In this document: piece by piece, positions 1-20,184 of the stretch | Layout: every line of letters starts with the position of its first letter | Numbering within the stretch: position 1 is the stretch's first letter | Origin: a virus | DNA length: 20,184 nucleotides | IMG/VR virus record: IMGVR_UViG_3300025849_000287 | Coordinates: 1-20,184 of that record | Reading direction: 5' to 3' (one strand) | Program-made: the position numbers and the translations under genes | The notes under the pieces: model-generated | Database searches by the model: none | Seen by the model: only the letters and a program-made list of their open reading frames with translations | Told to the model about the DNA's origin: nothing

Positions 1-2485
1 TTTCTTTGATCTTAGTGTCTTCTACAGGTTTAGCAGCTTCTTTTTTCTTAGCTAATCTTATTTTTGTTTCTAAATTAGTTTTAGTTGTTTGAAAATCCAC
101 CTCATTATCAAAATCAAATTCATCTAAGTTGTCTAATTGCTCTTGCAATTCTAATGACTTACTAGCCTTAATATCAGTTTTAATTTCAGGATCTATTTTT
201 TCTTTAACTAATTTTCCTTTAGCTTGTTTTTCTGTAATTGCTTTTTGAGCTTTAGTTAATTTACCTTTCTCTATACTTTTATTGTAATCTTTTACAAAAT
301 TGTAAACATCTTTGCCGCTATTAAACTTTATACCTGTGAGTCCAGCGTTTTGTAAAGCTCTACGAATTACATCACCAATTTTTGTAAATACGTTTTCATT
401 AAATTTTATATCGCCAGTAGCGATAGCATCTGAGAATAAAGTCAAAACCTCTTCGTTTTGAGTAGCTTCATCTAATTCTTTATATCGCTTTAATCTATTA
501 GCAAACTCACTGTTTTTAATTTGATTAGCATCAATTTTGTTTATATATTCGTTTAAAGACGTGCCTAAAGCTATTTGTGTTTCAGGTGAGTCTTTTACTG
601 TTTGAAATAAAGTAGCATGTAGAAATTCATGAGCAGCTACATTCACAGCAAAATCCTTATTAGCTATTTCTTCGTTTATAACTATGGTTTGCTTACCGGT
701 TTTAGAATCTTGCAGTACATAACCCTGTTCTGAAGCCGCTTTTTTTATCAAGTTTCTATCTTTAACTATTTGATCCGCTTGCTTCTGATCTTTAGCTATC
801 TCTATGTTTACAGATTTAACGTCTTCAGCAATTTTCATTACTTTTTCTGTAGTATTTCTAACCACAGTAGCAGCAAGTTCGTTGTCTATAGTTTTTACTC
901 TTTCTATTTGAGGAGTAGTTAAAGCCTTGTCATTTACTCTCTTTATTTCAGAGTTTAATTTTGCTTTTTCTTTTTGTAGCTCAACAACTTTTATCTCATT
1001 ATTTTCAGTTAAATTTAAAGGTTTTATCCTGTTTAAAATACCTTGAGTTTCTGCAGCATTAGTTTTTATTTTGTCAGCTTGTTCAGAAGTAATTTCTCCA
1101 TTGTTAAGCTTTGTATTTAACTCTTCATTAAGTATTTTTTCAGAGTTTTTAATTTTAGATAAATTAATTTCTATAGCGTCAGTTTTTGTTTCAGGATTAA
1201 AAACATCTACTATATTGCTATAATCACTATTCTTTACTTGTTTTTTTATTTTTACTCTATCGATATTTGTTTTTAAATTACGTAACTGAAGAGCCATACT
1301 TAAAGGCGCACCTGCTTTTCCAACAACACCTTCAGATATTATATCTTTAGCGTTCATTTCTTGACCAGCTACAAATCTTCCAGCTACTTCACCTGTACTA
1401 CCACCTATCATCTCTATAGCTCCAGTAGAAGTTGCACCGGCAACAGGAGCACCTCTAAACCCAGCTTTAGCTATTTTACCGCCAACTCCTTTAGCTACAC
1501 CGAAAGTAGCTAGTTCAACAGCAGATATAGTAAGCCCTCTACCAATTGCTTTATTTTTTAAGTCAGCTAATCGTTCAGGATCTTGTAATATTTTTTTAAT
1601 TTCCGTAGGATCTAATCCACCAGCCTCTTCTTGTAGTAGCTCAGAAAAAGTAAGACCTGTTTCCATAGCAGCCATAGATCCAGCCATTATACCCGGAGCC
1701 ACACCAGCACCGCCAAAAGCAAGACCTGTTGCTCCTCCTGCAGCCGCCGCAGCTCTAACTTGCCCGGAATTAAATATAGATCCTGCTTGACTAGCTACGG
1801 AGCTAACCAACATACTAGGAAGTACTGATGGGTTTTCATAAGCTCCTTTAATAAAGCCCCAAAACCCTCCACCTGCTTCTTCGTATGTTTTATCAAACTC
1901 TTTCATTTCAGCGGAGCCTAAATTTTTTCTTGCTATTTCTTTGTTTTTATTTACAAAGTCTAAAACTTCTTTATCAGTAGAATCTCCTCCTGAAGATAAA
2001 AGATCAAAAGCAGGATCAACTACTTCGCTTTGTTTCCACCCTTCTTTAGCGGAACGCCACATATCACTATAAAAGTCTACATATCCAGGTATACTAAAAA
2101 AACTTTCGTTTTCTTCAATCTTATCTTGATTAGCTAGGTCTTGTTCGTATTGCTTAAACTCTTCTTCAGTAACTTGGTAACCATTTACAGAAAAAGGGAA
2201 AGAAGGTTGCAGCTCTAAAGATGGGTCAGCTGGTACCAAAGGAACATCTTTGACCTGCTCATTTTCTTGTGATTCCGATGGAGCATCTACCGAAGGTGAT
2301 TCCGTAAAACCTGCTTGTGATGCTGTCATTGGTTGCTGCACTGCATCCGCATCCTCTACAGTGCTTGTTGGAAAATCCTGTGGTTCGTCTTCAATGATTG
2401 TGGCATCTGGAAATTGTTGTAAAAATCCTTCAACCTTATCCTCAGGTAAATTATAAGTCTTATCGTTTACTTTATATCTTGGCAT
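1..2485 (-). CDS. Internal virion / cargo protein with putative HExxH metallopeptidase domain (3' partial)
   Basis: An open frame starts at the ATG at 2483-2485 and is still open at the left edge; 828 codons are visible. The N-terminus (MPRYKVNDKTYNLPEDKVEGF) resembles the short start seen in large internal proteins of Bacteroidota phages. Residues about 35-95 are acidic and low in complexity. Residues about 205-400 are rich in Ala and Gly with hydrophobic stretches, as in phage proteins that cross or line an ejection channel. Residues 410-600 are charged and helical, probably coiled coil. HEFLH lies at 619-623 (bases 617-631), and a candidate third zinc ligand is E678 or E679 in NEEVLTLFSDAI. 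This HExxH-plus-downstream-Glu layout is typical of zincin peptidases in phage polyvalent proteins. After residue 726 the chain is Lys/Glu-rich. It is the last of three cargo-type genes in a row. The virion role is inferred; the peptidase motif is seen directly, but activity is not proven. Confidence 0.72.
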   Translation of the reverse strand, partial: MPRYKVNDKTYNLPEDKVEGFLQQFPDATIIEDEPQDFPTSTVEDADAVQQPMTASQAGFTESPSVDAPSESQENEQVKDVPLVPADPSLELQPSFPFSVNGYQVTEEEFKQYEQDLANQDKIEENESFFSIPGYVDFYSDMWRSAKEGWKQSEVVDPAFDLLSSGGDSTDKEVLDFVNKNKEIARKNLGSAEMKEFDKTYEEAGGGFWGFIKGAYENPSVLPSMLVSSVASQAGSIFNSGQVRAAAAAGGATGLAFGGAGVAPGIMAGSMAAMETGLTFSELLQEEAGGLDPTEIKKILQDPERLADLKNKAIGRGLTISAVELATFGVAKGVGGKIAKAGFRGAPVAGATSTGAIEMIGGSTGEVAGRFVAGQEMNAKDIISEGVVGKAGAPLSMALQLRNLKTNIDRVKIKKQVKNSDYSNIVDVFNPETKTDAIEINLSKIKNSEKILNEELNTKLNNGEITSEQADKIKTNAAETQGILNRIKPLNLTENNEIKVVELQKEKAKLNSEIKRVNDKALTTPQIERVKTIDNELAATVVRNTTEKVMKIAEDVKSVNIEIAKDQKQADQIVKDRNLIKKAASEQGYVLQDSKTGKQTIVINEEIANKDFAVNVAAHEFLHATLFQTVKDSPETQIALGTSLNEYINKIDANQIKNSEFANRLKRYKELDEATQNEEVLTLFSDAIATGDIKFNENVFTKIGDVIRRALQNAGLTGIKFNSGKDVYNFVKDYNKSIEKGKLTKAQKAITEKQAKGKLVKEKIDPEIKTDIKASKSLELQEQLDNLDEFDFDNEVDFQTTKTNLETKIRLAKKKEAAKPVEDTKIKE

Positions 2486-2507: not shown

Positions 2508-3968
2508 TTACTCTTCAAACTGTGAATAATCTATTACAGCTTCTCCTGCAATTCCGTTAGTCTTAAGCACTCCTTTGGACTCAGGAAGGGCTCCCGCAAA
2601 TCCAATTCCTTTTTGTCCTTTTTCTAATGGTTTAGTAGATTCTTTTGCTTCATCAATAGTATAACCTAATACATCAGATAAATACTTTATATTTGAATAA
2701 CCACCTTCGCTAACATCTAAAAACTTGCCTTGAGCGCTTTTTTGCTGAAGGAACCATCTTTTGTTTCCGTCATTGTCTTCTTTACGTATTGCTTGAATAT
2801 TAGGATCGTTTAAACTATATATAATTGGAACATCACCTTTAACACCTTCTTTGATAGTTTTATTAAAAACCTTTATTCTTCTTTTTTCTTCTTGTAATTG
2901 TTTTTGCTGAGGAAATGTTAACTCAGCGCCTGTAGAACCTTTTTTTGTAGGAATCTTTGATTCAACAATATTACCTAGAACTTTAGTAACAGCAGGTTGC
3001 TTCATCATATAGTTTAACAAAGCTTCCTGCGCTTTATTCTTTTGATCATCAGATAATGGCGTATCATAGCTAAAATCTGTGTCGCCTGGATTTAGTACGT
3101 TATTGTATAACGACGCTAGCTTTCTATCTGAAAACTGTGATAAAGTACTTTTAGATTGTACTTTCAGCTTGTTTTTAAAATCCTCAGAGTTAACTCTTCT
3201 ACCGAATTTATCTTGATGATATAGTATTTCGCTTTTATCATTATTTAAAACCGGAGATAATTCACTTGTTGGATCTACTAGGTTAATAGTGTTTTGTATA
3301 TTCTGATCAATATCTTTTGATATATTAGGTACAACAGTAGGCATTTGTGTAGTTGCCACGTTGTCATTGATAACGCTACCTACAAATTTTTCACCGTCTT
3401 TTGTTTTTTGATATACATCTAAAGAGAAAACAATCTGACCATTTTTATTAGTTTTATACCTAGCCTTTGTTCTTCCTTCTGTTTGATTCGCTAATACTGA
3501 AAGCTTTGCATATTGCTCTGGATTAGCTTTAGGATCAATAGCTCCCATAGTACCAGGTATTTTATTAACCTGCTCCATCATAGCTTCTTGAGACATAGCG
3601 GTATTCTTTAACATGTTAGCCATGTTATCTCCTATGTTTTCCATACTGTTGATGAATGTTTTTTCTTCAGCGGTTCTTTTAGCTGGATCTTTCATTAACA
3701 ATTTATTCATTAAGTCAAGTTGCGAATCTAGGTCTCCAAAATCTGCGGTAGGATTTTTAGATTGCGTTTGCATTATAGAGTTTTGGGCGTCAGCAACTCT
3801 TTTGTCAGCTTCAGCTCTAATAGCAGCCGTCTTAGCCGCATTATCAGCATGTATTTTGTTTATACTGGCGACAACACCTGTCCCTATACCTGCTAAAGTT
3901 TTTTGCAAGTTTTGTTCAATCTGTCCAGATTGTCTGTCTATATATTGTGTTGGATTTCTATAACTCAT
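2508..3968 (-). CDS. Internal virion / cargo-type structural protein, function unknown
   Basis: This 486-residue protein has no motif I can tie to an enzyme. Residues about 15-75 are Ala/Lys/Asp-rich and probably form a coiled coil (HADNAAKTAAIRAEADKRVA). Residues 80-135 are helical and Met-rich, and the rest is mixed charged sequence with many Lys and Gln. There is no signal peptide and no convincing membrane segment. It lies 11 bases after the preceding gene's stop and 22 bases before the next start, between two other internal-type proteins, so the three are probably expressed together and may form the material carried in the head or ejected into the cell. The start is ATG in an A-rich leader (AAAAAAATATAAG) without a Shine-Dalgarno sequence. 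The role rests on position and composition only; a minor tail or head component is an alternative. Confidence 0.7.
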   Translation of the reverse strand: MSYRNPTQYIDRQSGQIEQNLQKTLAGIGTGVVASINKIHADNAAKTAAIRAEADKRVADAQNSIMQTQSKNPTADFGDLDSQLDLMNKLLMKDPAKRTAEEKTFINSMENIGDNMANMLKNTAMSQEAMMEQVNKIPGTMGAIDPKANPEQYAKLSVLANQTEGRTKARYKTNKNGQIVFSLDVYQKTKDGEKFVGSVINDNVATTQMPTVVPNISKDIDQNIQNTINLVDPTSELSPVLNNDKSEILYHQDKFGRRVNSEDFKNKLKVQSKSTLSQFSDRKLASLYNNVLNPGDTDFSYDTPLSDDQKNKAQEALLNYMMKQPAVTKVLGNIVESKIPTKKGSTGAELTFPQQKQLQEEKRRIKVFNKTIKEGVKGDVPIIYSLNDPNIQAIRKEDNDGNKRWFLQQKSAQGKFLDVSEGGYSNIKYLSDVLGYTIDEAKESTKPLEKGQKGIGFAGALPESKGVLKTNGIAGEAVIDYSQFEE

Positions 3969-3979
3969 CTTATATTTTT

Positions 3980-4885
3980 TTAGTTCCTAGTCCATGAAGG
4001 TCTGTAGCTAGTGTCTATGCTAGGCGTGCCTGTTTCTATCGCATCTGGTAATTCTGTTGCGACAACCATATCTCTAGATTCAGTATAAGCATTTGCTTGC
4101 TGAGAAGCTAATCCAGTTAATAAGTTTCCTCCAATAGAAGCTAAACCTCCCATAAGTCCAGCTTGGTTTGCTCTTCTATCAGCAGACGCTTGCATAGCTC
4201 TACCTTGAGCACCACTTAATTGTGCTGATACTCTGTCTAGTTGCTGCATTTCTCTGGCTTCTTGGGCACCAAACATAAATTGTTTTCCAGCTGCTTCTAA
4301 CCCCTGCACTCTTCCGCCTTCACCTATTTGAATACCTTGAACTCTTGCAGCTTCTTGCATTCTCATTCTATCTAGTTGTTGCTCTCCTTGCGCTCTTAAC
4401 CTTTCATTATTTGCTTCTTGTTGTTCTATACTAGCTGATACACCTTTTTTACTTTGCAAGGCTGCTTGAGCTAAAGCAGTTGCACCGCCAGCTCCAGCGC
4501 CTGTAGATCTTATAGTATCTAAAGTATTTGCTAATGATATGTCTGCTTGTTCCATTTGTATTTCCGCTGCTTGAGTAGCTACACTTAAATTAGCATACGG
4601 GTTAGAAAGTGATGAGCTAAGATCTTGAGCTAAACCGCTTAAATCCCTTACACCTGAATATGGATTTGTTATCTGTTGTCTACTAGCTTCTAACGTACTT
4701 AGTTTTCTTTGTAGCCTAGCTTGCTCTTGTTGAGCCTGTCTTTCAGCCCTTCTTCTTCTACCACTTCCAAATATAGACCCTATTATTTGAATACCGCCAG
4801 ATATTAAAGCAGCACCAACTACAGGAGCTATAGCCATTTGAACATTATCTTGTCCAAAGAAAAATATTTCTAAAAATTCTATCAT
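3980..4885 (-). CDS. Ala/Gln-rich internal virion protein (DNA-ejection type)
   Basis: This 301-residue protein has a hydrophobic Gly-containing segment at about residues 17-40 (MAIAPVVGAALISGGIQIIG), then a basic run (GRRRRAER, 42-49) and long Ala/Gln/Glu/Arg helices (47-70 and 105-240). The block NTLDTIRSTGAGAGGATALAQ (from residue 120) followed by QSKKGVSASIEQQE is one I recognise as recurring in internal virion proteins of uncultured and Bacteroidota phages. A second small hydrophobic Gly-rich patch is at 243-260 (GLMGGLASIGGNLLTG). Short hydrophobic segments plus long helices fit a protein packed in the head and inserted into the envelope during DNA ejection; that function is inference. 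The ATG at 4885 leaves a 12-base gap to the upstream stop. Met17 (codon 4835-4837) begins the part that looks conserved and is an alternative start. Confidence 0.72.
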   Translation of the reverse strand: MIEFLEIFFFGQDNVQMAIAPVVGAALISGGIQIIGSIFGSGRRRRAERQAQQEQARLQRKLSTLEASRQQITNPYSGVRDLSGLAQDLSSSLSNPYANLSVATQAAEIQMEQADISLANTLDTIRSTGAGAGGATALAQAALQSKKGVSASIEQQEANNERLRAQGEQQLDRMRMQEAARVQGIQIGEGGRVQGLEAAGKQFMFGAQEAREMQQLDRVSAQLSGAQGRAMQASADRRANQAGLMGGLASIGGNLLTGLASQQANAYTESRDMVVATELPDAIETGTPSIDTSYRPSWTRN

Positions 4886-4897
4886 GTTATTTGTTTT

Positions 4898-6286
4898 TTA
4901 TCTTCCATAAGTTGCACCGACTGCAAATAATTCTTTTAATCCACCAGGATCTGTTGTAGCATCTGTTTTCATAGTTACTGTAGCATAGTAAGCTTTTATA
5001 CCTGTACTACTAGGTCCCATTATTACTTGACCGGCTATAGGCGTAGGCGAATTGTTCTTTATAGCTGCTACATAGTTGTTCTGCTTTCTATCAAAACCAG
5101 CTCTGTACTTTATGTTGTTTTGAACGTACAACCCCTCATTATAACTCCATATTTTAGTATAAGTATTAGGAGTAGCTGGAGTAGTAACATCTACTGTTGC
5201 TTGATTAACATTATTAGTCCAATTGCCGTTTAACTCATCAGCCCCAGTGTTGTCCGAAATTAAAGATGTTACTTCCCAACCATTACTACCCTCATAGCTT
5301 ATGGTTTTAAACGTTTTAACTCTAGTAGGGTCTGGATTGATGATTAATTTAACAGAAGAAGAGTTGTCTTCTCCATAAAAATTACCTCTATCAACATTGT
5401 CTGAATAATGTTTCCATACTGTTTTGCCATTTGTAGTAAAGAAGCTGCCTTGAGAGCTGAATCCAAAGCTAGGCTTATAGTCATAAAAACTAACCCAACC
5501 GTTCGTTGCTTCCTCAAAACTTAGAGTATTGTAATTGTTATCAGATTGTTGTAAGGATATTACGTAGTTTTTATTATGTATATCGTAAGCACCTATTATT
5601 TTTCCTGTACTATTTACGGCAGCTAATTTATCTCTAAAAAAGTCAACCATGCCATAACTTGATATTTCAGTTATACCGTCCATAGATAATCTAAGAACAG
5701 CATTTCTGTTTCTATCTGTAAAATACTTTTGATACCCATAAACAGCAAATGATTCAGGGTTTGTAGATATACCATATTCACCAGCGTAAGGTACTATTTG
5801 ACCTATAACTAAATTAGCAGATGTTGTTATAGCTCCACCTTCAGCTGAGTATATAGCGTCTTTGTCTATTAAAGCTCTATTTACTTTATCTTCTTGAAAT
5901 ATTATTAAGTTAGTATCTTCTGCGTATAGTTTTTGTATACTACCAGCTATAGGATCAACGCTTCTAGTTATTTCTTCAGCAACGCTAAATTGATTTGATT
6001 GGTTTACGCCAGTTCTAGAGTTTAAAATGCCTGAATAGATCAATGAATTTGATCTATGTTGTTGACTATCGTTCTCTTCTACTATATAAGCTTTTACACC
6101 TAAATCTACAGAAGTATTATTATAACCTCCTCGTATTCTTGATTCCTCGATATACCAATCCTCATGTACAACTGGTTGTGTAGGTGCAGTGTATGTAGTA
6201 TTAGTTGTTCCATCTCCTTTAGGTAGACCAGCTAATCTCTTCATATAAAATGAGTTAAAATATCCTACTTCTATTGTTATTGGCAT
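4898..6286 (-). CDS. Tail structural protein resembling the C-terminal part of the stabilization/muzzle family
   Basis: This 462-residue protein carries a chain of motifs that I associate with the C-terminal half of long structural ('stabilization' or muzzle) proteins of crAss-like and related phages: WYIEESRIRGGYNN (44-57), LIYSGILNSRTGVNQSNQFS, IQKLYAEDTNLIIFQEDKV, IYSAEGG, GEYGISTNPESFAVYGYQKY, AVLRLSMDGITEISSYGM, and later WVSFYDYKP and FYGEDNSS. In those relatives the block usually belongs to one protein that also carries the N-terminal region; here it has its own ATG, 30 bases after the stop of the 1379-residue gene. The sequence is rich in Asn, Ser, Thr and Tyr, as expected for beta-rich tail parts. 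There is no frameshift-like overlap at the junction, so a real separate gene is more likely than a sequencing break. It probably sits at the distal end of the short tail. Confidence 0.68.
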   Translation of the reverse strand: MPITIEVGYFNSFYMKRLAGLPKGDGTTNTTYTAPTQPVVHEDWYIEESRIRGGYNNTSVDLGVKAYIVEENDSQQHRSNSLIYSGILNSRTGVNQSNQFSVAEEITRSVDPIAGSIQKLYAEDTNLIIFQEDKVNRALIDKDAIYSAEGGAITTSANLVIGQIVPYAGEYGISTNPESFAVYGYQKYFTDRNRNAVLRLSMDGITEISSYGMVDFFRDKLAAVNSTGKIIGAYDIHNKNYVISLQQSDNNYNTLSFEEATNGWVSFYDYKPSFGFSSQGSFFTTNGKTVWKHYSDNVDRGNFYGEDNSSSVKLIINPDPTRVKTFKTISYEGSNGWEVTSLISDNTGADELNGNWTNNVNQATVDVTTPATPNTYTKIWSYNEGLYVQNNIKYRAGFDRKQNNYVAAIKNNSPTPIAGQVIMGPSSTGIKAYYATVTMKTDATTDPGGLKELFAVGATYGR

Positions 6287-6316: not shown

Positions 6317-9300
6317 TTACGCTGGTGAATTTTGGCAATCAGTAAAATTATCATCTCCAAAGTTAAATATTAATTCTGTAGTGCCTTCTCCAGCCGTTCC
6401 ACAAGCCTCACTTGTTATTGGTAATGTCAACACTCTATATTCACCTGGTTGTGTAAATGTGTGTTTAGTTCCGGTGGTTGTTCCATTTGTACCTACGTTA
6501 AGAGTAACATTATATATAAACGTGTTAGTCGTTGTGTCTGTAGCTTGCTGCCATCCACCGCCTGAATCAGGTTTAACTTGCACTGTATACTTTGTAGTAA
6601 AATCACTACCAACTGAAGCTCCGTTGTTTGTAAACGACGCTTCGATATACAAAGTTCCCTGCTCTAATTTACCAGTAGTTGGGGTGAAAAACTCTGTAGT
6701 AGCTTTATTTGCCACGTTGTAAGTGTCTTGAACTGGTATTGCTCCGTAAACAACTGTTGATCCTCCTCCTGTAACTGTAGTGTTTCCAAATGTAGGTGTA
6801 GTTGTGCTGCTATCTAAAAACTGCACCTGTAAAGCATCGCCACATCCCGTTGATGGTAAACTTCCTTGCCAACCTAAGCAAAGAGCTCTATTTACTCTTT
6901 GAGTTCCCGCTGTGAAAGTAACTCTACATTCTCCACTTAATCCGTTACCATTGACATCAGTAGCTAATACACCTACATCGTAGCTCTGACTATCAACTAA
7001 ATTGTATGATGACTTGACGGTTAAAACACCTGTTGATGAATTAATTTCGAATTGATTATTAACAGTACTGTAATTAGAAGCGTTAGGATCTAGTGACCAT
7101 ACTATTTGGTCAGTGCTATTTCCTCCAGTTGGATTGCTACCGTTTACAGCTGAAAATGAATGTATCGTTGTAGTACCTGTTGTTATACCTGTTAACTGTA
7201 TTTCTGGATTACCAGTAATAACTGGCTGAACGTTTGATAAAGAGAATGGATTTAGAATTATATCATCAGTCTCTCCATTATACGTGACATTAGCCGTCAT
7301 TGTATAAACACCTGTTGATGGTGTTGCTGCTACGTTTGTATTGTAGAAAAAATACTGGTTCGCACCTGTTTTTATTTCCCAAGTAGTAGCTCCTCCTGAA
7401 GATTGCTCTAACACAAATGTTCCTGATGGTAATGGAGTAGAGCTAGTTTGATCAATAACACTTATACTATTAATTACTAAACCAGTAGTTATATCTGTTC
7501 CACCTCCTGTTTGAAAATTAAAAGGATTTCCAATAACATCACCAGGACTAGCACTCTCTGGAAAAGAAGCAGTAACAAAGTCAGCTCCAATAACACCAGC
7601 GTATTGGCTATCTATCAAACTATTAATTACAGATAGTTCGCCTGATAGTGATGTTTCCCAATATATATCTAACAACGAATAAACTGGTTGCGTTTCTGCC
7701 ACTGACAAAAAAGGAACCATGCTATACACTTCCTGCACTGTACCTGGCGGTGTTGTTGTAGTTTCAAAAGTTGTTACGTAAGCACCTATTGGATTTCTTA
7801 CTTGATCTGATTGATTACACTTTATTACAAATGGATTTGTATCTGCATTGTATAAAGGGGCATTTGCAGGAGTAGTACCCCAAGGTATTCTACCTGTTGG
7901 TTCTGGTACTTCATTAACAGTACTTATACCGCTAGTGGCATCTCCAGGAGTATTGTATACGTATGTTTGTAGTACAGCAGATTCACCATACTCTCCACTC
8001 GGAACACTTGGCTTGAAAGGTATAGATTGTATTTCCATATCTCTAACAGTGGCTATCTGTATAACTTCTTGAGAAGAATTTCCTGGAAAGTATTGAGCAT
8101 TCCAAGGTATGTTGCTAGGAAAAGGGTTTTTTGGTGATACTACATTATTATCTATAAGTTTGTTATTTACTCTTACTGATAATAATTCACTGCTTGTATA
8201 GTCTTTATCCGTAGGGCCCACCTCTGATAAATCTCTAGGTATTTTATTTATATTATCACCCAGAGTAGTTGTAAAAAAACTTTTGTTTCTTTCAGAAGCA
8301 CCTCCAATAACTGGATAACCGTTCACAAACCCAGGTAAGTACACGTTGTAGTATTCTTGCTCTTGTTGTTTCACTACTACCTTATAAGAAAACCAACCAA
8401 GAGGATTTGTGACAGCGTTGTATAAACCAGGTGTACCTGTTGTTAAGTTTTTTGTTGAGTTTATAGCTGAATCTAATTGAACTTTTAGTGAATCCCCTAG
8501 CCAATCGGTTAACGGGCTAGATGAATCTTGATCTGTAGGTGTGTTGTAAGCATTAAATACAGTTGATCCTGCTATATCTGAATCACCATCATACGATGAA
8601 AGTATAACGTCGGATTGTCTACCGTATCTATCAGATAAAACAAATCCTACTTGATATGTTCTATTTTGTTTTAATTGATGAAAAGGGTATTGAGTATAGT
8701 TATCAAAGCTTTTAGACTTATCACCAATTATTGCTCTAAACTGTATTGAAGAAGGCGCTGTATGTCTATCCCTATAATTACCGTAAACAACTCTATTACC
8801 TATAACTTCCTGAGCTAAAGCTCTAACAGGTACTTTATCTGACACTCTAGTGACTTGGTTGTTGGGTAAAGTTTTATATGGTTTAGTGGAGGAATAGCTA
8901 TAGTCTAAAAAGTGCTTGTCACCATTACCGTGTATTGGGTCATTAAAAGAAATACTACTAAAAGTTTTATTATTTACGGGTATAGTCTCTAATACTTTAA
9001 CAGCTAAAGCGTCGGATTCTTTGTAAAGAATATCCACGTTAGTTATTTTCATTAAACTAAACATGTTTAAACCACTATCTTTTTCCATTGGTATTTTTAA
9101 CAATATATTGTTTATATTGTTTTCAAACCAAGAAACTATTGTTGATTTATAAGCGTCATTCATATCTTCATCAGGAGATACTAAACCTCCTCCAAACTGA
9201 CTATATTGTTTAGGTATAAACATTATTTGACTCCATGGAGCCATTAATGAATATTCGTTGTCTTCAAATTTAAATCTATAACTAAATCTTATAAATTTAT

Positions 9301-10456
9301 CTTCTAAAAACTTTTCATCACCTTTCCAAGAAGAGTCATAATTAGGGTTTGCTCCTATCAATATATTGTCACCAACAATCAAAGTAGTTTCCTTACTTAG
9401 CTTTACTATTATTTCTTGAGTAATTGAGACAGGAGGACCTGCTGCTGTGGAATCAATAACCTGAACCTCAACAACTGTTGTGTTAGCTGGAACACCTGTA
9501 CCGGTAACTAAATCACCTAGTCGAGGTATACCGTTTTCTCCGTCATATAAAAATTGATCACCACTTGGGCCACCGCTAAAAGCGGGTATGGTATACAACC
9601 TATCAGTACCTGTTCCAGTTATAGTTTGAATGCTTCCACTAGACTTATTAGACATGTTAACATCTTTAGCGTTAGTCATAGTAGGTCTACTGAAGTCTAT
9701 ATAGGTTCCGTCTGGCACTGTAATACTTGAAGAAAGTAATAACGTAGAAGTTGCAGTTATACCTATAACCACAACAAGATCACTTATATTTTGACTGTCT
9801 ACTTTATTATTATCCGTTACAATATCACCAACTTTAATTCCTGTAATACTAGCAGGTGTAATTACACTTGACCCACTACTAGCTCCTGTTATAGTAGTAG
9901 TATTTCTATCCATAACTAGTATTGGCTCCCAAGGCGCAAACTTAGCTACAGATATTTGATCTTCATTTGTGTAATAACCAGAAGTCAACGCATTTATTAC
10001 GTTTATTTTTCTAGGCTGGTTTAAATTATCTGTAAAAAACAATAAGTTCTCTACTAAGTTTATTCCAAAAAATGGGAAGGATTTATTAAAGTTTAAAAAA
10101 TAACCCTCAACAAGTACAGTAGGCGGGTTTACAGCGCTTAAATCTACGCTGACTATATAACATTCAGCACTACTAGGAGCTATAGTTCCGTCAACAGCGT
10201 CCCAATCAGTAGCAAATAAATAAGCTGTATTAGAGTTGTTATCTATAAAGTACCCAATTATCTCTGTTTGAGCTGAGGCATTTATAGTAGATATAGCTGT
10301 ATTACCTAGTACATTTTCAAACTCACCTACAGTAGAACTTTCTGATCTACTTATTGATAAGTTTCTAGCCTCTCTATATTCACCATTAGGTATTATACGA
10401 GGATCAAGATCTTGATTCATCTTGCCTTTGAGAAATGTATTTTTAATTTCAGCCAT
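6317..10456 (-). CDS. Large tail protein, stabilization/muzzle type N-terminal part, with Ig/cadherin-like C-terminal domains
   Basis: This 1379-residue protein is the largest gene here. The start FLKGKMNQDLDPRIIPNGEY (residues 8-27), followed by REARNLSIS, is the hallmark opening of the phage stabilization/muzzle family. Family-like motifs continue through about residue 950: FGINLVENLLFFTDNLNQPR (130-149), RFSYRFKFEDNEYSLMAPWS (390-409), VVYGNYRDRH, YQVGFVLSDRYGRQSDV (601-617) and LLDIYWETSLSGELSVINSL (928-947). Residues about 960-1075 look like a beta-sandwich linker. Residues about 1080-1182 look like a cadherin or Ig-type repeat: IVWSLD, FEINSSTGVLTV and YDVGVLATDVNGNG are the typical strand pattern. 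The last 190 residues are Thr/Gly-rich with four or five Cys. It probably forms part of the tail tip; the Ig-like array may contact the host surface. The start follows the upstream stop by 6 bases. Family assignment is by recognition. Confidence 0.75.
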   Translation of the reverse strand: MAEIKNTFLKGKMNQDLDPRIIPNGEYREARNLSISRSESSTVGEFENVLGNTAISTINASAQTEIIGYFIDNNSNTAYLFATDWDAVDGTIAPSSAECYIVSVDLSAVNPPTVLVEGYFLNFNKSFPFFGINLVENLLFFTDNLNQPRKINVINALTSGYYTNEDQISVAKFAPWEPILVMDRNTTTITGASSGSSVITPASITGIKVGDIVTDNNKVDSQNISDLVVVIGITATSTLLLSSSITVPDGTYIDFSRPTMTNAKDVNMSNKSSGSIQTITGTGTDRLYTIPAFSGGPSGDQFLYDGENGIPRLGDLVTGTGVPANTTVVEVQVIDSTAAGPPVSITQEIIVKLSKETTLIVGDNILIGANPNYDSSWKGDEKFLEDKFIRFSYRFKFEDNEYSLMAPWSQIMFIPKQYSQFGGGLVSPDEDMNDAYKSTIVSWFENNINNILLKIPMEKDSGLNMFSLMKITNVDILYKESDALAVKVLETIPVNNKTFSSISFNDPIHGNGDKHFLDYSYSSTKPYKTLPNNQVTRVSDKVPVRALAQEVIGNRVVYGNYRDRHTAPSSIQFRAIIGDKSKSFDNYTQYPFHQLKQNRTYQVGFVLSDRYGRQSDVILSSYDGDSDIAGSTVFNAYNTPTDQDSSSPLTDWLGDSLKVQLDSAINSTKNLTTGTPGLYNAVTNPLGWFSYKVVVKQQEQEYYNVYLPGFVNGYPVIGGASERNKSFFTTTLGDNINKIPRDLSEVGPTDKDYTSSELLSVRVNNKLIDNNVVSPKNPFPSNIPWNAQYFPGNSSQEVIQIATVRDMEIQSIPFKPSVPSGEYGESAVLQTYVYNTPGDATSGISTVNEVPEPTGRIPWGTTPANAPLYNADTNPFVIKCNQSDQVRNPIGAYVTTFETTTTPPGTVQEVYSMVPFLSVAETQPVYSLLDIYWETSLSGELSVINSLIDSQYAGVIGADFVTASFPESASPGDVIGNPFNFQTGGGTDITTGLVINSISVIDQTSSTPLPSGTFVLEQSSGGATTWEIKTGANQYFFYNTNVAATPSTGVYTMTANVTYNGETDDIILNPFSLSNVQPVITGNPEIQLTGITTGTTTIHSFSAVNGSNPTGGNSTDQIVWSLDPNASNYSTVNNQFEINSSTGVLTVKSSYNLVDSQSYDVGVLATDVNGNGLSGECRVTFTAGTQRVNRALCLGWQGSLPSTGCGDALQVQFLDSSTTTPTFGNTTVTGGGSTVVYGAIPVQDTYNVANKATTEFFTPTTGKLEQGTLYIEASFTNNGASVGSDFTTKYTVQVKPDSGGGWQQATDTTTNTFIYNVTLNVGTNGTTTGTKHTFTQPGEYRVLTLPITSEACGTAGEGTTELIFNFGDDNFTDCQNSPA

Positions 10457-13362: not shown

Positions 13363-14826
13363 CTAGTCTGTGAATAACACAAAGTTGTTAGCCGCTTGAG
13401 TCACTAAACATCTTTCAGATAAGAAGTGAACTTCCATAGCATCTAAATCAGAAGTAGCTGCGCCACCTACAGATCCAGTGATCCAGTTTTTCATTCTTCT
13501 ATCATCAGCTTGAGAAGCTCTATATCTTACGTGTAAGAAAGGTCTTCTGATGTTAGTTCCTAATATTTGATCGTAAACTGTAGAAGTTCCAGCAGGTACT
13601 AATACTCCTTCGATTCCAGAATCAGCAACACCTCCACGAGTAGAAGCGTCGTTTAAGTATTTCCAGTCAGTTTTGTAGAAGTCATAAGAACCTCTTCTGA
13701 ATCCAGAAAAACCTAAGTTTAATGCCATTTCTTCAGAATTTTCAAATACACCAAAAGAACTACCACCACCGTAGTAAGCACCAGCTCCAGCCGTTTGCCC
13801 TACACCAGCTAACATATCGTCAAAATCTAGAGAAGTTTCTCTGTTTAAGAATAACATGTTTTCTTCGATTGCTCCTTGAGTATCTAAGTTTTTAAGAATT
13901 GAATCAAACTGAGTTAAACCAGTTGTTGCAGTAAAGTCTACTAATACATTTCCACGGCTTTTAACAGCAGCGAAAAGACCTTCAGTACCTCTAGCAGTTG
14001 TAGTTGAACTTCCAGATTTTAATTCACCTTCTACCATAGACATTTCTAAGTAATCTTCAAAACGTAATCTTGTTTCAGATTCAGCTTTTAAGTACCATAA
14101 GAAACCTCCTTGACCAGACTCAGTAGCTACTTCAACCCATCCAATCTGAGCAGTGTCAGATCCATTGATTGCATACTTATCTTTAATGATAATAGGAGAG
14201 TTAGAGTATTGAGTGAAAGAAGGTGTTACAGAAATTCTGTTAGCATCTCCAGTTCCTTTTCCATACTCAGATCCATATACAAAGATTTTAAGGTTTGGTC
14301 CACCGGTTACTAAATCAACATCGCTTCCTACGTTTTGATCTAATGCTTCTTGAGTATAAGGAGCAACAGTTAATACACCAGCGCCTAAAGCACTACCAGG
14401 GGTAGCTCCAGAAGCAACAACGTAACAGTTTAATTCTGCTCCATTTGCTGGATTCATCACTACAATTGTAGAACCAGGAGATACAACGTTCTCAATACCA
14501 GTTCCTACAGGTATAGTTAAAGTAGACACTTTTGCAGGACTGACTCCAGCTACAGTTGCTATTACATTCTCGTAAGAAATGTGTAATCTATTTTGTTCAG
14601 ACCATACTACTTGGTCAGAAGTCATTGGCATTTCAGCTCCTACCATTCTTAAGAAACCACCTAAGGTTCTATTTCCATAACGCTCTACTTCAGCTTCATA
14701 GATTTCCGGTAAGTACTGTTGCGCGAAGTCACTCGTTCCATCAGTAAAGTTTAAATAATTGCCTTCTAAGGCTTGTTTTTTTGGCGTTGGAACTAAACTT
14801 CCAAACACCGGGCTTACATTTGCCAT
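13363..14826 (-). CDS. Major capsid protein
   Basis: This 487-residue protein has the length, position (portal, scaffold, then this gene) and composition of an HK97-fold capsid protein. It is rich in Gly, Ala, Ser and Thr, with an N-terminal helical arm (TDGTSDFAQQYLPEIYEAEV, residues 28-47, then GGFLRMVGAEMPMTSDQVVW) and a beta-rich middle. The part around SEQNRLHISYENV and the C-terminal FGVFENSEEMALNLGFSGFR and FLHVRYRASQADDRRMKNW resemble capsid proteins of crAss-like and related phages. No protease-type delta domain is obvious. Codons look more uniform and slightly less AT-rich than in the neighbours, as expected for a highly expressed gene. The gene ends in TAG and is followed by a strong hairpin. 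I am confident of the role and less sure of the lineage. Confidence 0.85.
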   Translation of the reverse strand: MANVSPVFGSLVPTPKKQALEGNYLNFTDGTSDFAQQYLPEIYEAEVERYGNRTLGGFLRMVGAEMPMTSDQVVWSEQNRLHISYENVIATVAGVSPAKVSTLTIPVGTGIENVVSPGSTIVVMNPANGAELNCYVVASGATPGSALGAGVLTVAPYTQEALDQNVGSDVDLVTGGPNLKIFVYGSEYGKGTGDANRISVTPSFTQYSNSPIIIKDKYAINGSDTAQIGWVEVATESGQGGFLWYLKAESETRLRFEDYLEMSMVEGELKSGSSTTTARGTEGLFAAVKSRGNVLVDFTATTGLTQFDSILKNLDTQGAIEENMLFLNRETSLDFDDMLAGVGQTAGAGAYYGGGSSFGVFENSEEMALNLGFSGFRRGSYDFYKTDWKYLNDASTRGGVADSGIEGVLVPAGTSTVYDQILGTNIRRPFLHVRYRASQADDRRMKNWITGSVGGAATSDLDAMEVHFLSERCLVTQAANNFVLFTD

Positions 14827-14840
14827 AATCTTTTAATTTT

Positions 14841-15980
14841 TTAGTTAAATTTTTTTGTTTTAATTCTAAGTTTAGAAGAATCAGGGCCTGTTATTGACTT
14901 AATTTTTATTCCGTTTACGAATTCACCTGAGCCAGTTTGCCTTGGCTCTGTGCTAGGATTTTTAGACTTGTTAACTATTTCTTTAGTAGCGTCTGTTCTT
15001 CCTTGTTCGTAAAAATGATTAATAATCTTGTCAGCATTTGAAGCAATGTAAATAGCTTTGTGATAACCTTTCGTGTCTTTTATATTACCGCTTTCGTCAA
15101 GAAACTTTCCTACGAAATTGTTAATACTTGATTGGTTCTCTGCAACTTTATTAGGATCTTGTAAACCATATCTAAACTTCTTTTCACCTACATTGAAGTC
15201 AAAACCTTTGAATTCATTAGTAAAGTAATCATTTGTTTTTGATTTAAAGTCCGAATGCTGTTGCTCAGCTATCTTCTGATCTTCTTGATATCGGTTGAAA
15301 AACTCCATTGCTTTTTGTTGTTCCTGAGTAACGCCGGGTCTCAACTTGATTTCGTCGTAATATTTACTCTTGGTATTTTCCAAAAAGCCTTTTGCTTTTG
15401 CAACTTCTTCTTTAAACGCAATTTTCTTTTTGCGTATATCTCTTTCCTCATCTAAGTCTTCGTCATAGTCGTAGTCTTCTAATAGTAGGCTAACGTCATC
15501 TGATTCTAAATAAGGTTTTGTTTGTTTGTAATATTCTTTTAATAGTGTTTTATCATCAACACTTGAGTAGTCTGCATTCAACCTAACATAGTCTTCTAAT
15601 GATCCACCGGTTTCTTCCATAAAAGAAACTAGCTTTTCAATGTTTTCTGGTAATTTAGCACCTGTTTCTTCGTTGTTAGTTAAAGCGTTATCAAATTGTT
15701 CTTCTAAAACCTCTACTTCATCTTGAACTTCTTCATCCACAATTTCTATAATACCATCTTTTACAGTATCATCTGGTGTATCATTAACAACCACCACAGG
15801 CTCTCCAACTCCACTTTCTTCAACTTCTGGTATTACTACCTTAGCGACTTCTTCAGCTACTGGTTCTTTTACTTCATCTATGTTAACCTTTATAGGCTCG
15901 TTAGATTGATTGCCTAATTGCTTAGGACTTGTTTTCTTGGATTTGATTTTAAAATCCCCTTCTTGTTTTACTTCTGACAT
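14841..15980 (-). CDS. Acidic scaffold-like head assembly protein
   Basis: This 379-residue protein has a Lys-rich start, then a very acidic, Val/Glu/Asp-rich and probably disordered region (about residues 33-110), an acidic stretch DDVSLLLEDYDYDEDLDEER near the middle, and a charged helical part (KKKIAFKEEVAKAKGFLENT and onward). The C-terminus is basic (SSKLRIKTKKFN), as in scaffolds whose tail binds the capsid shell. The place between portal and capsid genes is the classic scaffold position. No catalytic residues for a head-maturation protease are visible. The gene is 14 bases before the capsid start and 27 bases after the portal stop. The leader carries the 16-base A/T repeat. Scaffold is the best call; it rests on composition and order, not on a specific motif. 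Confidence 0.75.
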   Translation of the reverse strand: MSEVKQEGDFKIKSKKTSPKQLGNQSNEPIKVNIDEVKEPVAEEVAKVVIPEVEESGVGEPVVVVNDTPDDTVKDGIIEIVDEEVQDEVEVLEEQFDNALTNNEETGAKLPENIEKLVSFMEETGGSLEDYVRLNADYSSVDDKTLLKEYYKQTKPYLESDDVSLLLEDYDYDEDLDEERDIRKKKIAFKEEVAKAKGFLENTKSKYYDEIKLRPGVTQEQQKAMEFFNRYQEDQKIAEQQHSDFKSKTNDYFTNEFKGFDFNVGEKKFRYGLQDPNKVAENQSSINNFVGKFLDESGNIKDTKGYHKAIYIASNADKIINHFYEQGRTDATKEIVNKSKNPSTEPRQTGSGEFVNGIKIKSITGPDSSKLRIKTKKFN

Positions 15981-16007: not shown

Positions 16008-18416
16008 TTAGCTAGGGCCGAACTCTTCTATTCCAAATCCACCTAACACATCATTACCTGATGATTCAAAGTTTTTAGGCAACCCTTCTGTTTGTCTTTG
16101 TTGTATCAACTCAGACTGTTGGGATCCCTGCATTTTTATTCTTTTATCTTTTCTATCTTCAATTTCTTTCTCTTTAGCTCCTTCTGCGTTTGCTCTTACT
16201 TGAGCTAGCTGCATATTGAAGTTAAATTCCTCAGCCATTAACTCTCTTTTTATTTGAGCTTCAGTTTGCATTCTTTGTATTTCAAACTGCGACTTAGCTT
16301 GTTCTATACTTACTTTTTCCTGAGTGAGTGCTTGTTGTTTCTGTACTTCAGCCATTGCTGCTTTTTCAGACGCTTCAGCATTTGCTTGGGCCTGTGCTTG
16401 AATATTAGCTTGTTGTTGTTCTTGCTCTCTTTTTATTTTCTGAGTCTGTCTAAGCTTTAAGAATTGATTGGCTAACTTTATGTTTTTTATTTGTCTAATA
16501 TCGATAGCGTCGGATAAAGCTATTGCTTGTGTTTGTAAAGCTACTTGTATGTTCTGCTCTAACAAAGCTTTTTCTTCCTCTTCAGGTTCTAGCTCTAAGT
16601 AAATACCAAAGTCATGTAGCTGTAAGTTCATCAACTCTTCAAGAGTTTTTGTATTGAACGTGCTTATAGCATTTGTTAAAGCATTTTCTGTTAAAGGATT
16701 TTCAATAACATCAGCTACTTTCAAACTTATATTCTCGCAAGTTCTAACTGTTAAGTATAATAAAGAGTCTAACACGTGTTTAGTTGCAATGTTAGAAGCG
16801 TTAGCAGCCATCTTTTGTAAACCTACAAGTGAATCTTTAGCCGGTGTACTACCGTCTCTTGCTTCATTTAATCCGGTTACATCTCTTATCATTTGTAAAT
16901 AATACTGGTATGTACCAATTAGACTTTGTATTTTTGCTTGACCACTTGAAGATGATAATTCCTGTACAGGCACTTTACCTCTATTTAATTCACCGTCTTG
17001 CGTAAGTGATCTACCTACAACAGAACCTGTTTGAAAGTACATGTTCAATGCTTCAGCTGGATTGTACGTTGTACCGTTGCCTAAATCAACTTCTGCTAAC
17101 CCATCCATATCTAAGAATACACCATCTGGTACTATTCTAGACATCACTTGTTGTAATTTAAGATGTGTTATTTGGATCATATCAGCAAAGCTAGTAATTT
17201 TACTAACTATAGACTCTATACGTCCTTTATACATCCTAGGTGCAGATATACAGTAATTCATCATTACCTTTGTAGTATCAGCTGTTGGTCTAGTCATATT
17301 CTCAGCCAACTTCCACTCTAGCATTATATTTGTACCTAACACTTTAGCTCCAGTATATAAAACTTCTATTGTTCTAGATATTCTTTCAAAGTTATCATTA
17401 GCTGGAGGATTAAACGTGTCAGGCTTTTCTAATGTTTTTTCTAATCCTTGATCTGTTTTCTTTATTTTAAATACTTGGTCTGAATACGTTTTGTACTCAA
17501 AATACAATACTTGTATTGTATTTTCATCATAATTACCCCAGTTAGTTACATACTGCGAATTGCCAGGCATATCCTGTATTTTTTCTAATTCAGCTGGTGA
17601 TAAATTTGGAAACTGCTTTTTAAGCTCTGCTAAAGAAATTGATTTAACTTCACCTACATAATATATATCCTCAAAGTTTGGATCCTCTGTATATGAATAA
17701 ATCATATTAGCTGGATCAACATAATCAGTAACTATACCTTCTGCTTTGTTAAACGATGTTTTAACAGCTCCGATACCTATAGTAGTTAAATCATGAGCTA
17801 ACCGTTTTTTTGTTTGCTCATACTTATTAAAAGCTAATACATTATTTATAACCTCCTCTTCTGCAATTTCTACATTCTGCTTAGGAGTCATTTGTAAATG
17901 TATATCTAACTCTTCTCTATTTTCAGGTAGACTTTCTAAATCGCCTGTTGTTGAAAAGTCCATACCTAAGTTTTGCTTTATGTTTAACAAAGCTTTTTTG
18001 GTATTCATATCTTTTTCAACAGCCGCTGCGTAATCAGTTCTGCTTTTTACAGAAAATGGATCTTGAGCAAAAGCATTTATATCGTATGACTTATTTGACA
18101 TACCGTTTACAACGATATCAACAAATTTTGATATAACCGGTATTGGTTTCCAATCTAAATTAAGATAAGATAAATCACCGTTTATAGATAATTCATCTTT
18201 ATACTTTTGTATTGATTGCTCACCTCTAGCGTATAAACGTAGTGAGTGAAAACTATTCCAATTGTTTAAGTATCTATTACCGTTACCTCTTCCTTGATTG
18301 AACCATTCTTGTTCAATAGCTCTAGAGACTTGTAAGCCGTAATCATAACTAGCTTTTACTTCGTCGCTAACAACCTGGTTAGGGAAAGAACTATCGGTAT
18401 TTGTTTGTATTTTCAT
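16008..18416 (-). CDS. Portal protein with long C-terminal helical barrel-type extension
   Basis: This 802-residue protein follows the terminase directly (stop and start abut as TAAATG), the usual portal position. The N-terminal part includes WNSFHSLRLYARGEQSIQKY, then WKPIPVISKFVDIVVNGMSN (about 89-108), a typical portal opening. The middle has EEEVINNVLAFNKYEQTKKR, TTIGIGAVKTSFN, VDPANMIYSYTEDPNFEDIY and VTGLNEARDGSTPAKDSLVG, matching portals of podovirus type. The region from about residue 630 to 770 is a long Gln/Ala/Glu/Lys-rich helix (for example KREQEQQQANIQAQAQANAE), like the barrel helices of P22-type portals. The acidic/Gly end is FGIEEFGPS. It would form the dodecameric ring for DNA entry and exit. 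The function is clear from context and pattern; I cannot assign a precise portal subfamily. Confidence 0.85.
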   Translation of the reverse strand: MKIQTNTDSSFPNQVVSDEVKASYDYGLQVSRAIEQEWFNQGRGNGNRYLNNWNSFHSLRLYARGEQSIQKYKDELSINGDLSYLNLDWKPIPVISKFVDIVVNGMSNKSYDINAFAQDPFSVKSRTDYAAAVEKDMNTKKALLNIKQNLGMDFSTTGDLESLPENREELDIHLQMTPKQNVEIAEEEVINNVLAFNKYEQTKKRLAHDLTTIGIGAVKTSFNKAEGIVTDYVDPANMIYSYTEDPNFEDIYYVGEVKSISLAELKKQFPNLSPAELEKIQDMPGNSQYVTNWGNYDENTIQVLYFEYKTYSDQVFKIKKTDQGLEKTLEKPDTFNPPANDNFERISRTIEVLYTGAKVLGTNIMLEWKLAENMTRPTADTTKVMMNYCISAPRMYKGRIESIVSKITSFADMIQITHLKLQQVMSRIVPDGVFLDMDGLAEVDLGNGTTYNPAEALNMYFQTGSVVGRSLTQDGELNRGKVPVQELSSSSGQAKIQSLIGTYQYYLQMIRDVTGLNEARDGSTPAKDSLVGLQKMAANASNIATKHVLDSLLYLTVRTCENISLKVADVIENPLTENALTNAISTFNTKTLEELMNLQLHDFGIYLELEPEEEEKALLEQNIQVALQTQAIALSDAIDIRQIKNIKLANQFLKLRQTQKIKREQEQQQANIQAQAQANAEASEKAAMAEVQKQQALTQEKVSIEQAKSQFEIQRMQTEAQIKRELMAEEFNFNMQLAQVRANAEGAKEKEIEDRKDKRIKMQGSQQSELIQQRQTEGLPKNFESSGNDVLGGFGIEEFGPS

Positions 18417-20184
18417 TTATCTTAATATTTTAGACGTAGAACCTCTATTGTCATATCTTTTAATTCCTAAATCGTAAACCTTTTTTTGCACTGGACTAAC
18501 TGGTGAATATAGGTTTTTGTTACAAGCCATTATTGCTAAACCAGAACTTATAGAAGCATCATGCTTTGTTCTATTGTTTATATTGAATTTACCCCAGTCT
18601 TCTAATGTTCTTTGAAAGTACATATCTCCATAACCAGCTTCTGTTCGTCCAACACAAGTTTCTATATATGATTCTATAGCCGCAGCGTGTGCTTGCTTTA
18701 TATCTTCACTGGAGTTTGGTATACCGCCTATCTCTCTTTCAGTTACAGATAATTTGTTTAATCTTTTGTCGGGTCTATTCATTGAAAAGCCTCTATAGCC
18801 TCTTCTTTTGAAATGATACAGTAATCTAGGTTTGTTATTTTCAGCAAGTATTGGCATACCATAAAATATGCAAGCCATTAATACATCTTCAAAAAATATC
18901 TCAGCAGTTTGTGGTCTAGCTATATATTCTAAAAAGAATCTGTTAGGTGGAACATCCTCCATACTAAACTTAGTTAAACCGTGTAAAGCTCCGTTAGAAC
19001 CTCTTTTATCAACCGTACCTGATATATCATAACTGTCACAGCCAAAAGCGCCACAGTGTTCGTTACCTGGATATTTTGTATTACCTTTTGTTATAACTCT
19101 ATTTTGCATTTGCACAGGTGGTACCCAACTAACGTTGAACCTACCGTTTTTATTTGGTACAAATATTACCTTAGTATCTTTTATACCGTTTTCCCACATA
19201 AAACTTCCAGTGGTTATTATCGATGTATTTCTAAGGTCTTCATTATAATCTATTTGTTCATATATCTTCGTTAAATTAAACAAAGATTGTTTTGCTTCAT
19301 CTCTAAAAGCGTGTTGTTCTGTTCTCGGAAATTGACGATAGTATTCATTTAAACCATCTTGATCTCCTTTTAATCCTTCAACTTCATTTGTCCAGTATTC
19401 AATTACACCTTGCTTTATAGGCGATCCATCAGGTCCTTCAGCTGGTTTTTTTGGCGTTTCAAATACAGGAAATCCATAAGAATCAATGTAGCCTTCGTAG
19501 TTCCATTCCATAGGAATGAACAAGCTATAGAGTCCCGAACGAGTCTGTCCATTTGCATTTCTTTTTGTTGCGTCGGAGTCATAGTATAGTTTTTTAAAGT
19601 TCTCACCACCTTTGTCTAAAGCATTTGATGTACTACCCATCATACACTTACCTATAATTTTTGAACCTAACCTTAAACAAGTTTTTGTAACTCTCCAGTT
19701 ATTTAATATATTTGTAGGTCTTTCCCATTTACCACTTTCATCGTGGACTAATAGTTTTAATTTTTCACCGTCGTACGAGTTGTCCCCGGTGTTCTTCCAG
19801 TCGATCGTTGTATCGAGACCGGTGATTTCCTGTAGCTTCTCATTGGTGTCAAGCTTTTTTCTGGTAAATTTGGACGCTGGTACCCTGTACGCAAGTTCTG
19901 TCTTCGGCCTGTCCATACCGTCCTGGATGGGCTTGAAGAAAAAGGGGTAATTAACTGAGATGGGTACGACCTTATCAGTAAACATCTTTTTGGCGTCTGG
20001 CCCGGACTTTGATAAAATGCCAAATCTTGAATCTGTGGATATTGTTGCTTGATTAACCGTCTCGCCTGATGCCATGAAAGAGAAACCTGAACGTCGGTTT
20101 TTAAGATAACACATTCCGTAACACCGTACATCTGCTTTACAGGCTTCCCAGAATATAAAGAATAATCTGTTTGATTCCCTAAAG
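18417..20184 (-). CDS. terL: Terminase large subunit, ATPase plus nuclease (5' partial)
   Basis: The frame is open from the stop at 18417-18419 through the right edge. The ATG at 20112-20114 is internal, because meaningful codons continue upstream (WEACKADVRCYGMCYLKNRR). Numbering from that Met: a deviant Walker A, LKNRRSGFS, is at 4-12; Walker B with the catalytic Glu, LLVHDESGKW, at 121-130; a coupling-type motif, MMGSTSN, at 158-164; and the FPRTEQHAFRDEA motif at 262-274. The C-terminal RNase H-fold nuclease has likely metal ligands D360 (FGCDSYDISG), E425 (ILAENN) and D519 (KHDASISSGLAI). The protein cuts the concatemer and drives DNA into the head through the portal. The 5' part, from about 19765 to the edge, is richer in GC and uses different codons from the rest. 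The start and the first N-terminal residues lie outside the window. Confidence 0.9.
   Translation of the reverse strand, partial: FRESNRLFFIFWEACKADVRCYGMCYLKNRRSGFSFMASGETVNQATISTDSRFGILSKSGPDAKKMFTDKVVPISVNYPFFFKPIQDGMDRPKTELAYRVPASKFTRKKLDTNEKLQEITGLDTTIDWKNTGDNSYDGEKLKLLVHDESGKWERPTNILNNWRVTKTCLRLGSKIIGKCMMGSTSNALDKGGENFKKLYYDSDATKRNANGQTRSGLYSLFIPMEWNYEGYIDSYGFPVFETPKKPAEGPDGSPIKQGVIEYWTNEVEGLKGDQDGLNEYYRQFPRTEQHAFRDEAKQSLFNLTKIYEQIDYNEDLRNTSIITTGSFMWENGIKDTKVIFVPNKNGRFNVSWVPPVQMQNRVITKGNTKYPGNEHCGAFGCDSYDISGTVDKRGSNGALHGLTKFSMEDVPPNRFFLEYIARPQTAEIFFEDVLMACIFYGMPILAENNKPRLLYHFKRRGYRGFSMNRPDKRLNKLSVTEREIGGIPNSSEDIKQAHAAAIESYIETCVGRTEAGYGDMYFQRTLEDWGKFNINNRTKHDASISSGLAIMACNKNLYSPVSPVQKKVYDLGIKRYDNRGSTSKILR

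Follow-up and report, generated by a model that had tools for sequence, protein, structure and literature searches.

A predicted zincin metallopeptidase domain within a giant, probably packaged polyvalent-type phage protein

Zincin-type metallopeptidases are the commonest domains of phage polyvalent proteins, and their role there is unsettled. A 20,184-nucleotide viral contig (IMGVR_UViG_3300025849_000287; its full length is called the window here) poses the problem in a concrete form: what would a metallopeptidase do inside a giant protein encoded at the end of a set of virion genes? A preliminary description of this DNA had proposed a zincin-type metallopeptidase within a probable virion cargo protein, and that proposal is well supported by an invariant HExxH plus E679, a predicted fold, and synteny with a giant detected by MS/MS. 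The explanation that we favor, with a probability of roughly 0.55, is that of a giant polyvalent protein that would be packaged in the head and ejected with the DNA, and whose metallopeptidase would most likely cut its own polypeptide, either during packaging or after ejection. Such self-cutting would let domains that act in different places separate from one another.

The giant gene and its surroundings

The open reading frame lies on the minus strand, starts at position 2485 and leaves the contig edge at base 2 without a stop, so that only its first 828 residues are present in the window (Table 1). HEFLH is found within it at residues 619-623, as previously reported. Judged from the relative L002, whose giant is 2,737 aa long, about 1,900 further residues lie past the contig edge; full-length giants in three other relatives (L003, L004 and L006) have 2,364-2,575 residues. 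In L002 the giant is followed by an apparent M15-type peptidase gene (cf. annotations of peptidase M15 and of carboxypeptidase in related phages).

Table 1. Features of the window, from the giant gene and its parts to the far end of the virion gene run
Feature	Position	Strand	Basis or remark
Giant polyvalent-type virion protein, 5' part (828 aa)	2..2485	-	ORF without stop; L002 91% identical over 1-828
N-terminal leader, ~81 residues	2243..2485	-	parts common to relatives with an unrelated next domain
N-terminal domain, residues 131-572 (PHROG 32588, no assigned function)	770..2095	-	phrog_32588 E 3e-35
Ala/Gly-rich, mildly hydrophobic segment, residues 201-400	1286..1885	-	composition and Kyte-Doolittle peaks
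Predicted zincin-type metallopeptidase domain, about residues 549-760	206..841	-	59-sequence alignment, AlphaFold2, structural matches
HEFLH, active-site helix, residues 619-623	617..631	-	H, E, H invariant in 50/50 non-redundant relatives
E679, candidate third metal ligand, later core helix	449..451	-	invariant 50/50; model helix 125-142 = residues 673-690
486-aa gene directly upstream of the giant, no assigned function	2508..3968	-	close relatives only
301-aa protein, hydrophobic N-terminus then Gln/Ala-rich helical body	3980..4885	-	homologue in 58/78 giant loci
Muzzle-type tail protein, C-terminal part (462 aa)	4898..6286	-	PF25729 crAss_MUZ_C E 2e-11; phrog_14478 positions 923-1237
Muzzle-like tail protein, larger part (1379 aa)	6317-10456	-	phrog_14478 positions 1-177
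Major capsid protein	13363-14826	-	in virion gene run, then further head-tail proteins
Likely scaffold	14841-15980	-	named from gene order
Portal	16008-18416	-	named from gene order
Terminase	18417-20114	-	in virion gene run

The N-terminal part of the giant had been credited with a hydrophobic, Ala/Gly-rich segment of roughly 200 residues. Its composition holds up, with Ala and Gly accounting for a fraction of 0.25-0.42 per 60 residues and reaching 35-42% between residues 201 and 400. The hydrophobicity is only mild; because the strongest hydropathy peaks are 1.24-1.34 (Kyte-Doolittle, 19 residues), the segment is not clearly transmembrane. The leader in front of it is more constant in places: residues 27-78 are 85% identical to L003, and from there to about residue 300 similarity is absent, while the leader of another relative, L014 (residues 1-81), is 71% identical to that of L016. 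Leaders come in interchangeable types, either YKVNxKTYNLPEDKVExFLxxFPDA or MYIYDGFKYSEEEI..., and a common DFPTSTVEDADAVQQPMTASQAG stretch comes after them. The leader of the window giant (residues 1-81) is possibly a packaging or ejection signal.

The giant gene is the last in the run of minus-strand virion genes. By terminase and capsid, the nearest phages are a metagenomic podovirus from Manatee Spring, an Elemovirus that grows on Flavobacterium, and Cellulophaga phages; the window's single tie to Crassvirales is the muzzle domain PF25729. The muzzle-like tail protein is split here over two genes, the 1379-aa part including a weak cadherin-like stretch, and homologues of the 462-aa part occur in 69 of 78 loci, each locus being a giant plus its upstream DNA. 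The 301-aa protein encoded between the muzzle genes and the giant is likely an ejection or cargo protein. The 486-aa gene found a tblastn match in 8 of the 78 loci.

Packaging of the giant is likely because it follows the muzzle genes and because a syntenic, distantly related giant, phi18:3 gp123 from a Cellulophaga phage, carries a virion-protein annotation with the note 'experimental MS/MS proteomics'. The window giant is thus quite probably carried in the virion of a Flavobacterium/Cellulophaga-type podovirus, and the same synteny and annotation suggest that it would be ejected into the host along with the DNA. Like it, phi18:3 gp123 and phi38:1 gp101 are the last genes of their virion operons; unlike it, they are shorter (1,691-1,935 aa) and have no HExxH. 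The N-terminal similarity between the window giant and gp123 is transitive only, running via L007 and Elemovirus, and an iterative profile did not reach gp123. An identification of PHROG 32588 as the phi38:1 family was abandoned when a direct scan matched the phi38:1 and phi18:3 giants to phrog_22602, so the phi38:1 link is transitive as well. Further afield, the cargo proteins gp45-gp50 of phiCrAss001 are likewise encoded beside a muzzle gene, large, stored in the capsid and ejected (PMC10172136); those giants, in contrast, are related to RNA polymerase, and a zinc protease does not figure in that paper.

The Cellulophaga phages also bear on the suggestion that the enzyme is a head maturation protease, which would cut scaffold or capsid proteins. 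The earlier observation that the window has no separate head protease agrees with family searches of this genome fragment, in which head-protease families went unmatched (Pfam, 8 proteins; PHROGs, 9 proteins), and this counts in favor of the suggestion. Yet phi38:1 and phi18:3 share the capsid and portal module, with homologous major capsid proteins in the same gene order, and their giants do without HExxH. Moreover, the giant gene is grouped with those for muzzle and cargo proteins and lies outside the portal-to-capsid interval, and its zincin is one domain of a polypeptide of ~2,700 residues. The proposed role in head maturation therefore finds little to recommend it and is very improbable.

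Conservation of the motif and the predicted fold

A motif of five residues could be a chance occurrence in a helical structural protein, and the domain indeed reaches the cut-off of no curated Pfam or NCBIfam family (SprT-like, 15.8 bits against 25.6). His makes up just 0.2% of the 828 residues, in which ~0.0005 HExxH motifs would be expected by chance. Across 50 non-redundant relatives (below 80% identity), every position varies except G588, H619, E620, H623 and E679. When IMG/VR was scanned with the alignment of the domain, 80 loci were recovered; HExxH is present in every one, and more than 30 of them were reached without the HExxH-type seed, through the other seed only.

A stronger demonstration than any conservation within an alignment comes from giants gathered independently through their C-terminal module, which holds no protease. 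Exactly one HExxH is present in 62 of 63 non-redundant full-length giants assembled in this way, where shuffling predicts 0.34. Among the control motifs, HDxxH and HExxxH each occurred once in the 63 giants, and HKxxH, HNxxH, HAxxH and HExH did not occur. Three short ORFs from the same scan proved to belong to split genes whose upstream portion has the HExxH. Loss of the motif in homologs, named beforehand as the result that would speak against a protease, is confined to a single case in 101 giants. That case, L144 (L144:5636-12265), is the only full-length giant without HExxH, and in it the N-terminal domain is fused straight to the module that normally follows the protease, a clean natural deletion of the zincin. 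Together with the predicted fold, the invariance and the 62 of 63 rule out a chance origin for HEFLH.

The Manatee Spring podovirus giant (L010:142-11721; MW202828, UOF82488.1), a protein of 3,859 aa annotated as a reticulocyte binding/rhoptry protein, has two HExxH motifs, at 1615 and 2500.

For the third metal ligand, two adjacent residues had been put forward. The stretch NEEVLTLFSDAI begins at residue 677 of the giant and so spans both E678 and E679; the latter is the candidate because it is invariant among the 50 relatives, whereas E678 gives way to K, Q or V in some of them. An AlphaFold2 model of residues 549-809, built from an alignment of 59 sequences (pLDDT 84.7, pTM 0.80), runs in the order strand, helix, two strands, active-site helix (616-630), more helices, and a Glu helix (673-690). 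In the model, HExxH and E679 both fall on core helices that lie behind the beta core of one compact domain, in line, at the level of the fold, with the structural check proposed earlier, and its order of strands and helices is close to that given for polyvalent metallopeptidase (MPTase) domains by Iyer 2017 (PMC5512222).

Structural comparisons point in the same direction. Foldseek returned no significant match for the model in the PDB, but when its PDB candidates were realigned, zincins of several families ranked first, among them the lethal factor catalytic domain (Z 5.0-5.2) and its paralogous N-terminal domain (5.4), YbeY-type AQ_1354 (4.4), ArdC of plasmid R388 (4.2), a SprT-type protein (4.0) and CapP (3.3), the highest of these scores, 5.4, being middling by the tool's own scale. 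Lethal factor is also the structure by which Iyer et al. united the N4 domain with zincins (PMC5512222), and matches in a viral structure library include proteins named 'large polyvalent protein associated domain'. ArdC and the SprT/Spartan-type zincins (Z 4.0-4.2) share the zincin core with HExxH, and differ from the giant in context and in having no significant sequence similarity to it.

Assignment to a curated peptidase family was given up, as SprT-like, M78 and DUF3267 all matched below cut-off; no NCBIfam family matched, and a profile sequence search of the PDB gave nothing useful. By tblastn against annotated phages, the window protein was unmatched, and three further queries found nothing even at E 10: the N-terminal domain of the window protein, the complete L002 protein and the C-terminal module. 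A profile did find the zincin of the Elemovirus (E 1.6e-8), which aligns with the window domain. We are nearly certain that the domain has a zincin fold, and sequence and model together suggest that H619, H623 and E679 would coordinate a metal and that E620 would serve as general base.

A new lineage of polyvalent proteins

Since the contig ends within the gene, only the zincin is visible in the window, and effector domains are seen in relatives. Full-length relatives share one module order: leader, N-terminal domain, zincin, small middle module, variable region, and a conserved C-terminal helical module of ~650 residues. Regular expressions, whose counts are approximate, detect HAD motifs in 50, P-loop motifs in 10 and PD-(D/E)XK-like motifs in 13 of 101 giants in the variable slot, and profile searches add Zeta_toxin/AAA_33 in 2 of 18 relatives and polynucleotide kinase matches in one or two members. 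Examples of this slot, which lies between the middle and C-terminal modules, are seen at residue 1344 of L014 and in L018, L037 and L059.

The middle module, which comes right after the zincin (residues 826-985 of L014 and their equivalents, beyond the window edge), bears some likeness to sigma-70 region 2. This identity was dropped, the single Sigma70_r2 match having an E value of 0.0024 in 1 of 18 proteins.

The C-terminal module matched no Pfam family and, by sequence, no LPD model at the Pfam cut-off. Its predicted structure (pLDDT 79), on the other hand, resembles those of many phage PolyVal/LPD proteins (Foldseek E 1e-11 to 1e-4), and this puts the polyvalent assignment on firmer ground than a general likeness would; matches to T7 ejectosome and core chains (Z 4.8 and 4.0) were set aside as noise-level. 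With several disparate catalytic or effector domains in its relatives, an MPTase domain, and a module that is LPD-like by structure, the giant is best filed with the phage-type polyvalent proteins of Iyer 2017, as a new lineage that had not been modelled before. Zincins had been said to be known in phage polyvalent proteins, and rightly so, as this class carries MPTase domains.

The giant shares with the polyvalent proteins described by Iyer 2017 its great length and multidomain build, an MPTase in which HExxH is followed by a Glu on a helix further on, effector-like domains joined to it in one polypeptide, a late or virion gene neighborhood and a PolyVal/LPD-like C-terminal structure. It differs from them in three respects: the protease is near-obligate (100 of 101), as opposed to present in about 36% of proteins (PMC5512222); the zincin and C-terminal parts fall below the cut-offs of Pfam, PHROG and NCBIfam; and the N-terminal domain and protease are exchangeable as a block. 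The kind of protein is thus already known, and the lineage, the near-obligate protease and the block replacement are new in that they are not described in the openly searchable literature. The family is widespread, with at least 566 IMG/VR stretches encoding the C-terminal module, and it is absent from current family libraries.

What the protease might do

The lineage supplies contrasts that bear on function, namely a protease fixed in 100 of 101 giants, block replacements such as that between L099 and L100, and the one deletion in L144. That the protease is constant while the effectors vary favors a function that concerns the giant itself. Self-processing is what Iyer 2017 proposes for the MPTase class, pointing to phage P1 DdrB, which is processed before it is packaged (PMC5512222). 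On the other side, the virion RNA polymerase of phage N4, which has an HExxH domain, is packaged unprocessed (PMC5512222), and structural work examined it at full length, free of degradation (PMC12633501). The clean loss of the zincin in L144 weakens the case for self-processing, and the giant has yielded no identified cleavage site, which also counts against it. Weighing these points, we put the odds that self-processing is the main role of the zincin at about even.

The N4 polymerase suggests another possibility, that of a silent folding or regulatory unit. Gp50 of N4 is an ejected virion protein of great length, as the giant would be, and like the giant it has a membrane-type N-terminal part, HExxH and a large helical C-terminus; its C-terminal region, which includes the HExxH subdomain, inhibits the polymerase, with cutting not reported in the accessible part of the source (PMC12633501). 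In N4 the HExxH (C1 subdomain) comes after the polymerase; here the zincin follows the N-terminal domain. A T7-like RNA polymerase module found no family match in L002, L003 or 18 relatives, in a search that a divergent polymerase could escape. A structural unit would sit poorly with the pattern of conservation, the ligands and general base being, apart from one Gly, the only side chains invariant in 50 divergent sequences; such a unit is improbable.

A target in the host is possible because the block formed by the N-terminal domain and protease diverges fast and is replaced wholesale. In several pairs of giants (L099/L100, L123/L124, L158/L165) identity is 74-89% over the last 900-1,250 residues, while the first 1,000-1,250 residues or more, zincin included, show little similarity or none; each of the swapped blocks keeps an intact HExxH. 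Chimeric assembly is an unlikely source of these swaps because each type recurs in two or more independent contigs (L099 and L078; L100 and L163). An ejected metallopeptidase that cuts a host cytoplasmic, envelope or defense protein early in infection, an option listed by Iyer 2017 (PMC5512222), would be expected to diversify as in an arms race, and the swap at 89% identical C-termini (L099/L100) has this appearance. That said, the protease is missing from only one giant in 101 while the effector-like domains beside it vary, and an optional effector should be lost at a higher rate. A host-directed role is the main rival, conceivable but on the unlikely side.

Swapping of N-terminal blocks between near-identical C-termini fits diversifying pressure on a host-directed protease, and it also fits an exchangeable cassette in which N-terminal domain and zincin move as one, flanked by a short leader and a C-terminal half that both stay constant. 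The cassette is a tentative idea that we rate as rather doubtful. If it were true, the protease would be a co-adapted partner of an envelope-crossing domain, unlike a protease that separates effector domains; it could free that domain once a path had been opened, or act on a host envelope factor. Self-processing, the reading preferred here, and its competitors are directly testable in a cultured relative with the zincin domain, the Elemovirus of Flavobacterium sp. BAL314.

In a wider comparison of L099 and L072 with L100 and L163, the C-terminal parts are 76-89% identical, residues 88-1202, including the zincin, have no similarity, and the first 87 residues are 56% identical.
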